This document shows positions 39,404-59,640 of a stretch of DNA of 64,000 nt, one piece after another; the first letter of the stretch is position 1, and each line of letters opens with the position of its first letter. The stretch comes from Microbacterium sp. (GTDB lineage Bacteria > Actinomycetota > Actinomycetes > Actinomycetales > Microbacteriaceae). Where the stretch lies: assembly GCF_031179285.1 (NCBI RefSeq), contig NZ_JAPSHY010000012.1, forward strand, positions 29,722 to 93,721, in the 5' to 3' direction. The position numbers were made by a program, and so were the translations under genes. The notes below the pieces were generated by a model, which saw only the letters and a program-made list of their open reading frames with translations, made no database searches and had not been told where the DNA came from.

Positions 39404-39494
39404 GTCGACAGCGTATCGATCGGGGTGGACACCACGATCCGCGCGTCGTCGGTCGAGCGATGTCCGATGTACGAATTAGCGTCAGCAGCGCAGC

Positions 39495-39523
39495 TTGCTT
39501 TATTCGAATATATCTTCGAGAAT
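39495..39523 (+). promoter_or_regulatory. LexA-controlled promoter of imuA'-imuB-dnaE2
   Basis: TCGAATATATCTTCGA (39504-39519) matches the actinobacterial SOS box TCGAAC-N4-GTTCGA in all five outer bases of both arms. It lies between a possible -35 TTGCTT (39495) and a possible -10 GAGAAT (39518) spaced 17 bp. Such a promoter would start transcription at about 39530, at or next to the ATG of imuA'. LexA binding is inferred from the box and the mutasome context. Confidence 0.82.
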
Positions 39524-39529
39524 GGATGC

Positions 39530-40309
39530 ATGGGGATCGGGCTCGATGCAGTGACCGCGCTCTCTCCGGCTGGCGACTCCCGCGCCGGAGAGGTGCTCCG
39601 GCTGCGCCGGGAGATCAGCAGGATGCAGCGACGCCGCAGCGACCTTCCCCTCCTCCCCCTCGATCCTGCACTGACCGCCATCCTCCCCGACGAGGGGCTG
39701 CAGGCCGGCACCGCCTACACGGTGTCCTCCTCACCGAGCCTCGTGCTGGCCTTGCTGAGCGCCGCGTCGCAGAAGGGGCTCTGGTGCGCCGTCATCGGCA
39801 TGCCGACGCTGGGCGTCGAGGCCGCCGCCGCGTTCGGCATCGACCTCTCGCGACTGATCCTCGTCCCCGAACCCGGCGAGCGCTGGATGGCGGTGACGTC
39901 CGCGCTCTCCGAGGTGGTGCCGCTCATCGCCGTGCATCCGGGCGGCCGGATGCGCGATGCCGACGTCTCCCGGCTGAATGCCCGACTGCGCGACCGCGGA
40001 TGCACGCTGCTGGTCACCGCCGCCTGGCCGCAGAGCGAGGGGACGATCCGCGTCCACGACCCCCATTGGCATGGCCTCGGCGCCGGGTGGGGGCTGCTCT
40101 CGGACTGCACGGTGACGGTGACGGCGCAGACCAGGCATATGCCGGTGCCGTCGAGCGTTCGGGTGAGGCTTCCCGGCAGCCAGGGCGCGATCGAGCCGGT
40201 GGCCGCGGAGCTCACCGCCCTCCCCTCGCTCACCGACACCCCCTCCTCCCTTCCTGCTGAGACCGCGGCACGTCCGGTGGAGATCTCCCGATGGGCGGCG
40301 GCAGGATGA
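39530..40309 (+). CDS. imuA': ImuA', RecA-like mutasome accessory protein
   Basis: First gene of the SOS mutagenesis cassette. About 259 residues with weak similarity to RecA and SulA: RAGEVLRLRREISRMQRRRS at the N-terminus and a Walker-less core. ImuA' with ImuB recruits DnaE2 to lesions through the beta clamp (mycobacterial work). The start is uncertain: in-frame ATG 39530 lies only 11 bp after the LexA box, GTG 39551 is possible, and the track start 39425 would put the LexA box inside the gene. Stop and imuB start overlap (ATGA). Confidence 0.85.
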   Translation: MGIGLDAVTALSPAGDSRAGEVLRLRREISRMQRRRSDLPLLPLDPALTAILPDEGLQAGTAYTVSSSPSLVLALLSAASQKGLWCAVIGMPTLGVEAAAAFGIDLSRLILVPEPGERWMAVTSALSEVVPLIAVHPGGRMRDADVSRLNARLRDRGCTLLVTAAWPQSEGTIRVHDPHWHGLGAGWGLLSDCTVTVTAQTRHMPVPSSVRVRLPGSQGAIEPVAAELTALPSLTDTPSSLPAETAARPVEISRWAAAG

Positions 40310-41844
40310 GCGCCCCGCTCCGCGTCCTCGTGCTGTGGTTCCCCGACTGGCCGTTGCGGGCAGCCCTCGGCGGGGCGCCCCCGCATCCGCCGACGGCTCT
40401 GATCCATGCGAACACCGTGGTGGCCTGCACCGCTTCGGCTCGCGCGCACGGAGTCCGCGTCGGCCAGCGCCGCAGAGTCGCACAGGGGCACCTCTCATCC
40501 CTGCAGGTGCTCCCCCACGATCCGGCCAGAGACGAGCGCGCCTTCCTCCCGGTGCTCCAGCTCATCGAGAAGCATGCCCCGGGAGTGGGCCTTCTTCGCC
40601 CAGGACTCGCCGCTCTCCGCGCCAGGGGCGTCTCCCGCTATCACGGCGGTGAGGCCGAGGCGGCAGAAGCCCTCGTCGGCATCCTCGCCGACGCCGGGTT
40701 CCCCGAGGCGCGCATCGGCATCGCCGACGGTCCGTTCACGGCAGAGGCCGCCGCTCGTGCAGGCCATCCCTTCACCATCGTGCCGACGGGCACCGCGAGG
40801 CAGTACCTCAGCGCGTTCCCGGTGCAGGCGCTCAGAGACGAGCAGCTCACCGGCCTCCTCGTCCGGCTCGGGGTGCGCACCCTCGGGGATTTCGCTGCTC
40901 TGAATTCCCTCGAGGTGCGCGATCGCTTCGGCGAACGAGGAGCGCGTCTGCACGCGCTCGCCGCGGGTGCCGACTCCCGTCCCCTCGTTCCCCGCCCGCC
41001 CGATCCTGAACTCGCTCGCGCCGTGGAGTTCGAGCCGGCGCTGAGCGGAGCCGATCAGGTGGCCTTCGCCGTGCGGCAGACGGTGGATGCGGTGATGCTC
41101 GCCCTCGGGGATGCCTCGGTGGTGTGCACGGAGGTGCGCATCGACCTGACCGACGACAACGGCCTGGTCTTCTCCCGGTCATGGCTGCACCCGACCTGCT
41201 TCGACGCCGCCGATCTCGTCGATCGGGTGCGCTGGCAGCTCGAGGCACTGGCCGCCGAGAACGCGAAGGAGCCGGTCGACGAGGCCAGGACGTTCGGAGG
41301 CATCGTGTCGGTGCGCATCGTGCCGGTCGCCGTCGATGACGCCGCTCACCACCAGCCGGGGCTCTTCGGCTCGGGCTCCGACGAGCGTCTGCATCACGCC
41401 GTCTCGCGAGTGCAGACGATGCTCGGCCATCAGGGTGTCGTCACCGCCGCGGTCTCCGGTGGCCGCTGGCTCGCCGACCGGCAGGTGCTCACGCCCTGGG
41501 GTGAGCGTTCGGTCGCCCCACGCGACCCGGAGCGTCCATGGCCGGGGAGTCTGCCCGATCCGGTGCCGTCCGAGGTGTTCCTGCCCCCTCGGCCCATCAC
41601 CGTGTCGGCAGCGGACGGCACGGTGATCGGCATCGACGAGAGAGGAGCGCTCTCAGCCGATCCCGCTCTCGTCGACGGAGCGGGCGTTCAGGCGTGGGCG
41701 GGACCCTGGCCGATCGAGGAACGTCGCTGGGACGACGCCGCGAGGCGGCATGGTCACCGCCTGCAGATCGTCGACGACCGGGATCGGGCGTGGCTGGTCT
41801 TCCGCGCTCGTGACCGCTGGTGGGCCGAGGGGCGGTACCGCTGA
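40306..41844 (+). CDS. imuB: ImuB, Y-family polymerase-like clamp-binding hub
   Basis: 512 residues. LWFPDWPLRAAL opens the protein, and ARAHGVRVGQRRRVAQ plus IGIADGPFTAEAAARAG are Y-family-like. ImuB has lost the catalytic carboxylates in known cases and acts as a bridge between beta clamp, ImuA' and DnaE2. A beta-binding motif is not certain, but HHQPGLFGSGSDERLHHAV (QPGLF) fits the QxxLF-type clamp-binding peptide. ATG 40306 overlaps the imuA' stop by 4 bp, and its own stop shares one base with dnaE2 (TGATG). Confidence 0.93.
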   Translation: MSAPLRVLVLWFPDWPLRAALGGAPPHPPTALIHANTVVACTASARAHGVRVGQRRRVAQGHLSSLQVLPHDPARDERAFLPVLQLIEKHAPGVGLLRPGLAALRARGVSRYHGGEAEAAEALVGILADAGFPEARIGIADGPFTAEAAARAGHPFTIVPTGTARQYLSAFPVQALRDEQLTGLLVRLGVRTLGDFAALNSLEVRDRFGERGARLHALAAGADSRPLVPRPPDPELARAVEFEPALSGADQVAFAVRQTVDAVMLALGDASVVCTEVRIDLTDDNGLVFSRSWLHPTCFDAADLVDRVRWQLEALAAENAKEPVDEARTFGGIVSVRIVPVAVDDAAHHQPGLFGSGSDERLHHAVSRVQTMLGHQGVVTAAVSGGRWLADRQVLTPWGERSVAPRDPERPWPGSLPDPVPSEVFLPPRPITVSAADGTVIGIDERGALSADPALVDGAGVQAWAGPWPIEERRWDDAARRHGHRLQIVDDRDRAWLVFRARDRWWAEGRYR

Positions 41845-44800
41845 TGGGATGGCACAATCCCCCGCAGACCTGGGCCGAGCTGGAGCGCCTCCTCAGCGGG
41901 GAGGATCCTCCGAAGCACCCCGCCGATGAACCGCGATCTCCTCGGGAGGATCCTGGGCCGGTGAGCCGGCGCCGGCAGCGGACGCCACCCGCGGCGCTTG
42001 CCCGTGCCGACGACGCGGTGCCCTACGCCGAGCTGCACGCGCACTCCTCGTACTCGTTCCTCGACGGCGCCTCCTCTCCGGAGGAGCTTCTCGCCGAGGC
42101 CGAACGGCTCGGTCTCACCGCACTCGCTCTCACCGATCACGACGGCTTCTACGGCGCAGCCCGCTTCGCCGAACTGGCCGAGGTCATGAATGTCGGGGTG
42201 CAGACCGTCTTCGGGGCCGAGCTCTCACTGGATCTGCCGGCCCCGCAGCGAGGCAGCCCCGATCCTGCCGGTGAACATCTGCTCGTCCTCGCCGGCGGCC
42301 TCGAGGGCTACCATCGCCTGTCCGGAGCGATCTCCGCCGCGCATCTGCGCGGCGGCGAGAAGGGACGCCCCGTCTACGATCTCGACGAACTCGCGGCGAG
42401 GGCGGGGGGCCAGTGGACGATCCTCACCGGATGCCGCAAGGGAAGCGTGCGCCGGGCGCTGGAGCGCGGTGACGCCGCGACCGAACTCCGGCGCCTCGTC
42501 GGCCTGTTCGGCCGCGACCACGTCGCGGTCGAGCTGTTCGATCATGGCGACCCGCTGGACACCCGTCGCAATGATGCCCTCGCCGAGCTCGCTCGTCGCA
42601 TGCGGCTGCCGGTGGTGGCCACGAACAACGTGCACTACGCAGCTCCCCAGCAGGCCAGGCTCGCCGAGGCGATGGCCGCCGTGCGCGCTGTTCGCAGCAT
42701 GAACGAGCTGGACGGATGGCTGCCGGCGCACGGCAGCGCGCACCTGCGAAGCGGCGCCGAGATGACCGCACGATTCCAGCGCTACCGGGGCGCGATCTCC
42801 CATGGTCTGGAACTGGCGGCGGCATCCGCCTTTCCGCTGCGACGCGCGCGTCCGGCGCTGCCGCAGCAGAAGGTGCCGGAGGGGCACACCCCCATGAGCT
42901 GGCTGCGTTCGCTCGTCTGGCGAGCCGTCCCCGAGAAATACCCGCACCTCGATGCCGACGGGCGCAGCAGGATCGAGCGGGAGCTGAACGTCATCGAGGA
43001 GAAGGACTTCCCCGGGTACTTCCTCATCGTGCACGACATCGTCGCCGAGGCGAGGCGGCGGCGGATCCTCTGCCAGGGACGAGGATCCGCTGCGGCGAGC
43101 GCGGTCTGCTATCTGCTGGGCATCACCGCCGTCGATCCGATCCTCTTCAACCTCCCCTTCGAGCGCTTCCTGGCCACCACTCGCTCCGAGGAGCCGGACA
43201 TCGACGTGGACTTCGACTCCGACCGCAGGGAGGAGATCATCCAGTGGGTGTATCAGAGGTACGGCAGAGAACGCGCAGCGCAAGTGGCCAACGTGATCCA
43301 GTACCGCCCGAAGAACGCCGTCCGCGATATGGCGCGAGCGCTCGGTCACTCCCCCGGGCAGCAGGACGCCTGGTCCCGGCAGGTCGACGGCTGGAGCGCC
43401 GGCGTGGAGCCGGTGGAGGGGCACGACATCCCCGAGAACGTGCTCGCCTACGCCGGCGAGCTGCTCAAGGCTCCCCGCCACCTCGGCATCCACTCCGGCG
43501 GCATGGTGCTCACCGCTCGCCCCGTCGGCGAGGTCGTACCGGTCGAGCATGCCCGCATGGAGAATCGCACCGTCATCCAGTGGGACAAGGATGATGCGGC
43601 CTGGATGGGGCTGGTGAAGTTCGATCTGCTGGGACTCGGGATGCTGGCCGCTCTCCAGCACTCCTTCGATCTCATCGAGGCGGCGACGGGCGAGAGATGG
43701 ACGCTGGAGAGCATTCCCAAAGAGGAGCCGGGGGTCTACGACATGCTCTGCCGGGCCGATTCCATCGGGGTCTTCCAGGTGGAATCGCGCGCTCAGATCG
43801 GTCTGCTCCCCCGCCTTCAGCCGCGGAGCTTCTACGACCTCGCCATTCAGATCGCCCTCATCCGCCCCGGCCCGATCCAGGGCGGTGCGGTGCATCCGTT
43901 CGTCCGTCGCAAGATGGCGAAGGACAAGCTCGACGAGGAGAACAGGGAACGGGCCGAGCGCGGCGAGGAGCCGCTCACCCTGGAGGTGCCGTACCCGCAT
44001 GACGATCTGAAGCCGATCCTGAAGCGCACCCTCGGCATCCCGATCTTCCAGGAGCAGCTCATCCAGATGGCGACCGCTGTCGGCGACTGCACGGCCGACG
44101 AGGCGGATCTGCTGCGGCGGGCGATGGGCTCGAAACGAGGGCTGGAGAAAATCGAGAAGGTCCGCGAGAAGCTCTACGCGGGAATGGAGCGGCGCGGGCT
44201 CGTCGGTGACGCGGCCGACCGCATCTATGCGCAGATCCAGGCGTTCTCGAACTTCGGCTTCGCCGAGTCGCATTCGCTGTCGTTCGCTCTTCTCGTGTAC
44301 GCCAGCTCCTGGCTGAAGCTGCATTATCCTGCGGCCTTTCTCGCCGGGCTCCTGCGCTCGCAACCGATGGGCTTCTACTCGGCGGCGACGCTGACCGCCG
44401 ATGCCCGGCGTCACGGTGTGGAGGTACGGCGCCCGGACCTGCATGCCTCCGCCGTCACCGAGACGCTTGAGCCCCTCACGACCGAGACTCCCCCCACTGA
44501 GGCTTCCACCGCCCCGTTCTTCCGCGACCACGGGCGCCCGCCGACGGGTAGCGACGCCTGCCTCGTGAACCCGCAGCCGAAGCCGCTGCGGTTCGACAGG
44601 GATGCTCCCGACGAGTCCGCCGCACACCGCCGCGACGGCGCGTACGCGGTGCGCCTCGGTCTCAGCGGCGTCCGCGGGATCGGTCTGCCGATGGCGGAGC
44701 GGATCGTGGCAGAGCGAGAGGCGAACGGCCTCTACCGCGACCTGAACGACCTGGTGAGACGCACCGATGCCACGGCCGCTCAGCTGGAGGCCCTCGGCAC

Positions 44801-45347
44801 GGCCGGTGCTTTCGCCTGCCTCGGCTTGAAGCGCCGCGAGGCGATCTGGCTCGCTGGGGCCGCGGCCGATGATCGCGCACGGTTCCTGCCGGGGACGACG
44901 GTGGCGGTGCAGCCGCCGTTGTTCGCCGACCAGTCCAGTTACGAGCAGCTGGCTTCCGATCTCTGGGCGACCGGGGTCTCCACCGACGATCATCCGATGG
45001 CGCATTTCCGCGCAGCCCTCGGCGAGCGGGGGGTGCTTCCGGCCTCCGAACTGCAGACGCACGAGTCGGGCAGGCGCATCGAGGTCGCCGGCCTCGTCAC
45101 TCACCGTCAGCGACCGGCCACCGCGGCGGGGGTCACCTTCATGAATCTGGAGGACGAGCACGGACTCGTGAACGTCATCTGCTCGACAGGTGTGTGGAAC
45201 CGCTACAGTCGCGTCGCGCGCGAGTCTCCCGCGCTGATCGTCCGGGGCATCCTGGAGCGCTCAACCGAGGGTGTCGTCAATGTGCTCGCCGATGCGTTCG
45301 AAGACCTGCGCACCGGGCTCACGCACCGGTCGCGCGACTTCCGGTGA
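41844..45347 (+). CDS. dnaE2: DnaE2, error-prone DNA polymerase III alpha subunit
   Basis: 1167 residues, C-family polymerase. The PHP domain opens with YAELHAHSSYSFLDGAS and TDHDGFYGA. Polymerase motifs include CQGRGSAAASAVCYLLGI and PDIDVDFDSDRREEI with the catalytic aspartates. ARRHGVEVRRPDLHAS is characteristic of the DnaE2 branch. It performs translesion synthesis and damage-induced mutagenesis with ImuA'/ImuB. ATG 41844 shares its A with the imuB stop, so all three genes are translationally coupled. C-terminal OB-fold strands are visible (RRIEVAGLVTHRQRP). Confidence 0.96.
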   Translation: MGWHNPPQTWAELERLLSGEDPPKHPADEPRSPREDPGPVSRRRQRTPPAALARADDAVPYAELHAHSSYSFLDGASSPEELLAEAERLGLTALALTDHDGFYGAARFAELAEVMNVGVQTVFGAELSLDLPAPQRGSPDPAGEHLLVLAGGLEGYHRLSGAISAAHLRGGEKGRPVYDLDELAARAGGQWTILTGCRKGSVRRALERGDAATELRRLVGLFGRDHVAVELFDHGDPLDTRRNDALAELARRMRLPVVATNNVHYAAPQQARLAEAMAAVRAVRSMNELDGWLPAHGSAHLRSGAEMTARFQRYRGAISHGLELAAASAFPLRRARPALPQQKVPEGHTPMSWLRSLVWRAVPEKYPHLDADGRSRIERELNVIEEKDFPGYFLIVHDIVAEARRRRILCQGRGSAAASAVCYLLGITAVDPILFNLPFERFLATTRSEEPDIDVDFDSDRREEIIQWVYQRYGRERAAQVANVIQYRPKNAVRDMARALGHSPGQQDAWSRQVDGWSAGVEPVEGHDIPENVLAYAGELLKAPRHLGIHSGGMVLTARPVGEVVPVEHARMENRTVIQWDKDDAAWMGLVKFDLLGLGMLAALQHSFDLIEAATGERWTLESIPKEEPGVYDMLCRADSIGVFQVESRAQIGLLPRLQPRSFYDLAIQIALIRPGPIQGGAVHPFVRRKMAKDKLDEENRERAERGEEPLTLEVPYPHDDLKPILKRTLGIPIFQEQLIQMATAVGDCTADEADLLRRAMGSKRGLEKIEKVREKLYAGMERRGLVGDAADRIYAQIQAFSNFGFAESHSLSFALLVYASSWLKLHYPAAFLAGLLRSQPMGFYSAATLTADARRHGVEVRRPDLHASAVTETLEPLTTETPPTEASTAPFFRDHGRPPTGSDACLVNPQPKPLRFDRDAPDESAAHRRDGAYAVRLGLSGVRGIGLPMAERIVAEREANGLYRDLNDLVRRTDATAAQLEALGTAGAFACLGLKRREAIWLAGAAADDRARFLPGTTVAVQPPLFADQSSYEQLASDLWATGVSTDDHPMAHFRAALGERGVLPASELQTHESGRRIEVAGLVTHRQRPATAAGVTFMNLEDEHGLVNVICSTGVWNRYSRVARESPALIVRGILERSTEGVVNVLADAFEDLRTGLTHRSRDFR

Positions 45348-59533: not shown

Positions 59534-59640
59534 TTGTTCCGCGCTTCCGCGCGGGCAACTCCCCTATCTTAGCCTGACCGCACGGCACGTCGCGAACCGG
59601 TGCGTTGCGGGTGTCGGACGCCCGGCGTACCGTCTCTGGC

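Follow-up and report, generated by a model that had tools for sequence, protein, structure and literature searches.

Results

A mutasome operon in Microbacterium

The window analyzed here is the whole 64,000-nucleotide stretch of Microbacterium DNA, and it carries a complete mutasome set, in which profile matches place the genes for ImuA', the Y-family protein ImuB and DnaE2 next to one another (Table 1). Among named species, those closest to the source genome belong to Microbacterium, with M. aurantiacum ranking first. Because the three genes run consecutively, with ATGA and TGATG overlaps, they very probably constitute a single operon. The regions upstream of imuA' were compared across 130 Microbacterium loci, 83 loci from other genera of the Microbacteriaceae and 54 loci from other families or orders. 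For counts of promoter elements, the Microbacterium loci were divided into clade I (n = 50) and clade II (n = 80; L051 to L130); for counts of start codons, L087 and L098, in which the box finder failed, were left out and L050 was moved to clade II, giving 49 and 79 loci, respectively. Start geometry could be scored in 128 Microbacterium loci, 83 other Microbacteriaceae loci and 26 loci from other actinobacterial orders. A literature search returned no paper that joined Microbacterium, LexA and imuB.

Table 1. Genes and regulatory features at the imuA' locus, in window coordinates
Feature	Position	Strand	Remarks
P1 PafBC/RecA-NDp motif, TGTCCG-N10-TAGCGT	39461-39482	+	TGTCCG at 39461-39466; -10 TAGCGT at 39477-39482
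Predicted P1 transcription start (about 39489)	39488-39490	+	Inferred; about 7 nt past the P1 -10
P2 -35, TTGCTT	39495-39500	+	TTG in 50/50 clade I and 70/80 clade II loci
LexA operator (SOS box), TCGAATATATCTTCGA	39504-39519		Lies in P2 spacer; last two bases shared with P2 -10
P2 -10, GAGAAT	39518-39523	+	NANNNT in 43/50 clade I, 79/80 clade II and 78/83 other-genus loci
imuA' (259 aa)	39530-40309	+	NF058630 ImuA' match, E = 6.7e-51; predicted leaderless ATG 39530
imuB	40306-41844	+	Y-family polymerase domain IMS (PF00817); ATGA overlap with imuA'; ORF open from 40291
dnaE2	41844-45347	+	NF004225 error-prone DNA polymerase, 1377 bits; TGATG overlap with imuB; ORF open from 41820

The LexA operator and the probable promoter that overlaps it

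The LexA operator in front of imuA', TCGAATATATCTTCGA, is the single occurrence of TCGAA-N6-TTCGA in the 64-kb window, against 0.04 expected from shuffles, and when up to three mismatches to the 16-mer were allowed, the imuA' site was still the sole match in the window. The site (TCGAAT-ATAT-CTTCGA) agrees with the actinobacterial consensus, TCGAAC-N4-GTTCGA, at 10 of 12 positions and is identical at 14 of 16 positions to the first lexA operator of its own genome, CCGAAGATATCTTCGA.

The initial annotation had placed this operator within a core promoter, between TTGCTT and GAGAAT with a 17-bp spacer (39501 to 39517), and the placement was borne out by the geometry conserved in relatives. Throughout the family, the layout of this promoter, termed P2, consists of a -35 element, a box that begins 9 nt after the first T of TTG, a -10 element whose first two bases are also the final two of the box and, 6 nt further on, the start codon; the placement of the box relative to both hexamers is the same across the Microbacteriaceae loci. 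A sigma-70-like scan with a threshold of 9/12 found no site, and the P2 hexamers match the consensus at 7 of 12 positions together (TTGCTT, 3/6; GAGAAT, 4/6); the generic scan is too strict for this promoter. Because the hexamers of the window are weak when taken alone, the assignment of P2 as a promoter rests on comparison. TTGAC occupies the -35 position in 60 of the 83 loci from other Microbacteriaceae genera, usually as TTGACA or TTGACT, so that the window's weak hexamers resemble what the decay of a good promoter would leave. Since the box and the -10 element have bases in common, they covary between the clades: clade I combines a box ending with TTCGA and a GANNNT -10, whereas clade II has TANNNT as its -10 and, in most loci, TAGAAC-N4-GTTCTA as its box. 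The sequence comparison thus makes a convincing case for a leaderless P2 promoter that would be occluded by LexA.

Operators elsewhere in these genomes were also recorded. In clade I, lexA (L187, L188, L197, L206, L207 and L209 to L211) is preceded by a pair of operator-like sites, CCGAAGATATCTTCGA and TCGAACAGATCTTCCA, spaced by about 72 nt. The form prevailing among clade II imuA' boxes is unlike the recA and lexA boxes of that clade (TCGAA or CCGAA...TTCGA), and the exact TAGAAC-N4-GTTCTA palindrome occurs once or twice per genome in four of the five clade II genomes searched and not at all in the fifth. At L139 (G000:C55), TCGAAAGGATGTTCGA (positions 1501 to 1516) precedes a gene for a DUF222-HNH endonuclease by 31 nt, and the ATG of that gene follows TAGACT by 6 nt; HNH endonuclease genes of M. 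tuberculosis are RecA dependent too (PMC8151990).

A predicted leaderless start at ATG 39530

The ATG at 39530 to 39532 is in frame with a 294-amino-acid open reading frame that runs from GTG 39425, and it lies 6 nt after GAGAAT; two further ATGs, 39522 and 39526, fall outside the imuA' frame. From the first base of the P2 -10 element to ATG 39530 is exactly 12 bp, and in leaderless bacterial genes, the first base of a TANNNT-type -10 element is found about 12 bp before the start (PMC3160421). The full P2 geometry, including the in-frame start, was present in 116 of the 128 scorable Microbacterium loci (38/49 in clade I and 78/79 in clade II) and in 72 of the 83 loci of other Microbacteriaceae genera, and a start codon was found at the corresponding place in 13 of the 26 scorable loci from other actinobacterial orders. 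When 211 Microbacteriaceae loci were scored, the distance from the -10 to the start was 6 nt in 188 of the 199 with an intact -10; such fixed spacing amid much sequence change is as expected if the transcription start must equal the start codon. The -10 was broken in the other 12 loci, and in all 12 the start codon was gone from its usual place. On the tree, this co-loss amounts to four supported independent pairs, in which the start follows 3.8 times on average (p = 0.125), and with so few independent events the linked loss is suggestive as the mark of a leaderless start.

A Shine-Dalgarno-like 4-mer beginning 7 to 12 nt before the start was found in none of the 83 other-genus loci, which led to the rejection, at the family level, of a Shine-Dalgarno sequence as the only cause of the constant distance, and no such 4-mer lies just upstream of ATG 39530 in the window. 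The same explanation is partly open in clade I, where 39 of 49 loci carry GAGG or AGGA about 8 nt ahead of the ATG, within the -10 element GAGGAT. The conserved spacing, the lack of a Shine-Dalgarno 4-mer and the co-loss with the -10 all speak for the start at 39530 that the initial annotation had predicted to be leaderless.

Two departures from this pattern were observed. In a subclade of seven genomes (L004, L006, L007 and L010 to L013), GAGAAA takes the place of GAGGAT or GAGAAT, the P2 -10 is lost, and imuA' seems to begin with a GTG, or with an ATG close by, preceded by AAAGGA where a Shine-Dalgarno sequence would lie; from this subclade, P2 appears to be dispensable in some species. In clade II, 71 of 79 loci have a second in-frame GTG or ATG four codons past the predicted leaderless start; it often has GAGG before it at Shine-Dalgarno distance and may serve as the start for a leadered mRNA.

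A candidate PafBC-type promoter upstream of P2

PafBC has been studied mainly in mycobacteria. About 40 bases upstream of the LexA-box promoter, and directed at imuA', the window carries a second candidate promoter, P1. Its upstream element is TGTCCG, as in many relatives, TGTCGG being the commonest form, and its spacing matches exactly that of the published PafBC motif, TGTCGG-N10-TANNNT, for which the variants TGTCAG and TGTCAC are also reported (PMC8151990); a motif of this type has been named RecA-NDp (PMC8223512). PafBC acts through sigma adaptation, and the element involved lies about 26 bp ahead of the transcription start (PMC10936776), a distance that fits the start predicted for P1.

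About 126 of the 130 Microbacterium loci (126 by strict count) have TGTCNG-N10-TANNNT 40 to 45 nt ahead of the box, a distance that varies, in contrast to the fixed spacing of P2. The motif is kept in these loci while the bases in between its fixed ones change, and at this distance it was found in 0 of the 83 loci of other Microbacteriaceae genera. The window holds two matches to TGTCSG-N10-TANNNT, with 0.23 expected. As a control, the regions upstream of recA were searched, and 29 of 29 Microbacterium genomes carry both a PafBC motif and a LexA box there. The genome also has adjacent pafB and pafC genes (L218 ORFs), upstream of a tatC-like ORF, each of which matches one half of PafBC in structure 6sj9, with E values of 1e-32 and 8e-31.

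The initial annotation had described the operon as tightly repressed by LexA; the LexA box in the promoter stands, but the description is incomplete because the conserved P1 motif was overlooked. It had also held that a transcription start well upstream of 39504 would count against its proposal. Since the predicted P1 start precedes 39504, such a start would probably be seen by way of P1, without disproving a leaderless P2.

The second TGTCSG-N10-TANNNT match in the window, TGTCGGACGCCCGGCGTACCGT (59612 to 59633, + strand), has a -10 that ends 7 nt before ATG 59641, where a gene for a GNAT acetyltransferase (PF00583) begins. It has the geometry of a leaderless PafBC-type promoter, to be read against the 0.23 matches expected by chance.

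Elsewhere the elements are laid out in other ways. Of the 83 other-genus loci, 35 have TGTC at 21 or 22 nt ahead of the box, and in nearly all of these the N10 that follows it ends at a CANNNT that shares bases with both the P2 -35 and the box's first T. In certain other families of the order, a PafBC element at -21, beside the box, is followed by a proper -10 and a gene with a leader. Among the loci compared, the separated tandem layout of PafBC and LexA elements was found only in Microbacterium; the ImuA' tree, on which parsimony counts eight changes, is too weakly resolved to support a single origin of the tandem layout.

Discussion

We consider it likely, on the evidence of conserved sequence, that the 130 bp upstream of imuA' hold two DNA damage promoters in tandem, a PafBC-type P1 and a leaderless, LexA-repressed P2, and that imuA'-imuB-dnaE2 is probably under the dual control of LexA and PafBC. 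P2 (39495 to 39523) would be a sigma-A promoter in which the LexA operator takes up the spacer and the first two bases of the -10, so that in undamaged cells LexA would cover the spacer and the -10 and P2 would be occluded. Upon damage, RecA-stimulated cleavage of LexA would allow P2 to fire, giving a leaderless mRNA from ATG 39530, within a base or two. Damage that activates PafBC would cause P1 to fire at about 39489, with a leader of about 41 nt running through the LexA box. Because the predicted P1 start lies upstream of the box, LexA, at about +16 to +31 of P1, would hinder transcription from P1 by blocking its path, and the effects of PafBC activation and of LexA release would then be additive. 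Binding by LexA and PafBC, the transcription starts, the roadblock and induction are what we infer.

Two simpler arrangements were weighed against this tandem model. The first keeps only the LexA-repressed promoter with its leaderless start and treats TGTCCG-N10-TAGCGT as irrelevant. The geometry of P2 and its start are well supported, and with 0.23 matches expected, one chance match per 64-kb window is possible, but retention of the motif at a near-constant distance from the box throughout almost all Microbacterium loci, the presence of pafBC in the genome and the same PafBC motif at recA make this reading improbable. The second takes P1 as the only promoter, the box as a downstream roadblock, TTG and GAGAAT as non-promoter sequence and the GAGG of GAGGAT as the Shine-Dalgarno sequence of a leadered mRNA. 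It draws on the GAGG or AGGA of clade I and on those families of the order in which a PafBC-type promoter by the box precedes leadered starts. We regard it as unlikely, because GAGAAT in the window comes with no Shine-Dalgarno-like 4-mer, the other genera combine GANNNT, again free of such a 4-mer, with a frequent TTGAC -35, the 3' arm of the clade II box is altered in a way that makes the -10 TANNNT, and a leadered gene needs no start exactly 6 nt from a hexamer.

A start at GTG 39425 or ATG 39467, which would put the LexA box in coding sequence, is very improbable even though in the window the reading frame stays open from 39425 on, since relatives have an in-frame stop no more than 105 nt upstream of the start in 16 of 49 clade I and 71 of 79 clade II loci (in 59 of the latter as TAG within the -10 itself), single-base shifts in the distance from the PafBC motif to the box (-42 or -43 in clade I) break the frame, and 39425 precedes both predicted promoters. 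Both candidates were rejected; judged from the stops and indels in relatives, the stretch upstream of ATG 39530 is noncoding, and the initial annotation was right to doubt the 39425 start.

Returning to the tandem model, we offer a fuller reading only tentatively, in which two promoters with two modes of translation are joined to a dual-use LexA box and a shifted PafBC element in Microbacterium. PafBC would yield a leadered, Shine-Dalgarno-led mRNA, which in clade II would probably be read from the second GTG or ATG four codons downstream (71/79 loci), and release of LexA would yield a leaderless one. One LexA box would serve as both promoter occluder and roadblock, and the Microbacterium PafBC element would lie about 21 to 22 bp, or two helical turns, upstream of the -21 position seen in 35 of 83 other-genus loci.

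Since the operon makes the DNA damage mutasome, its switching decides when the bacteria mutate. Two separable promoters, with predicted leadered and leaderless mRNAs, would allow the LexA and PafBC inputs to be distinguished singly. In addition, the annotated start of imuA' is corrected, and the rule that the start codon lies at box +11 can be used to reannotate imuA' across many actinobacteria.

Joint control of mycobacterial imuA'-imuB/dnaE2 by LexA and PafBC has been reported (Adefisayo 2021, cited in PMC10421592), which makes dual control a conservative reading here. The genes are the same, as are the two probable regulators. In overall layout, the mycobacterial cassette is split, whereas Microbacterium has one operon with a separate candidate PafBC-type promoter upstream of a predicted leaderless LexA promoter. 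M. tuberculosis lexA (PMC2897130) is likewise controlled by LexA and has a transcription start that equals the start codon; it is a different gene, and its leaderless start was proven experimentally, whereas that of imuA' is predicted. Actinobacterial recA (PMC8223512), including that of Microbacterium, likewise has two damage elements, an SOS box and a RecA-NDp/PafBC promoter, but in Microbacterium recA the LexA box comes first, about 87 nt ahead of the PafBC motif, whereas at imuA' the box follows the motif and lies within the second promoter. The parts are of known kinds; what is new is their tandem arrangement, with two predicted types of mRNA.
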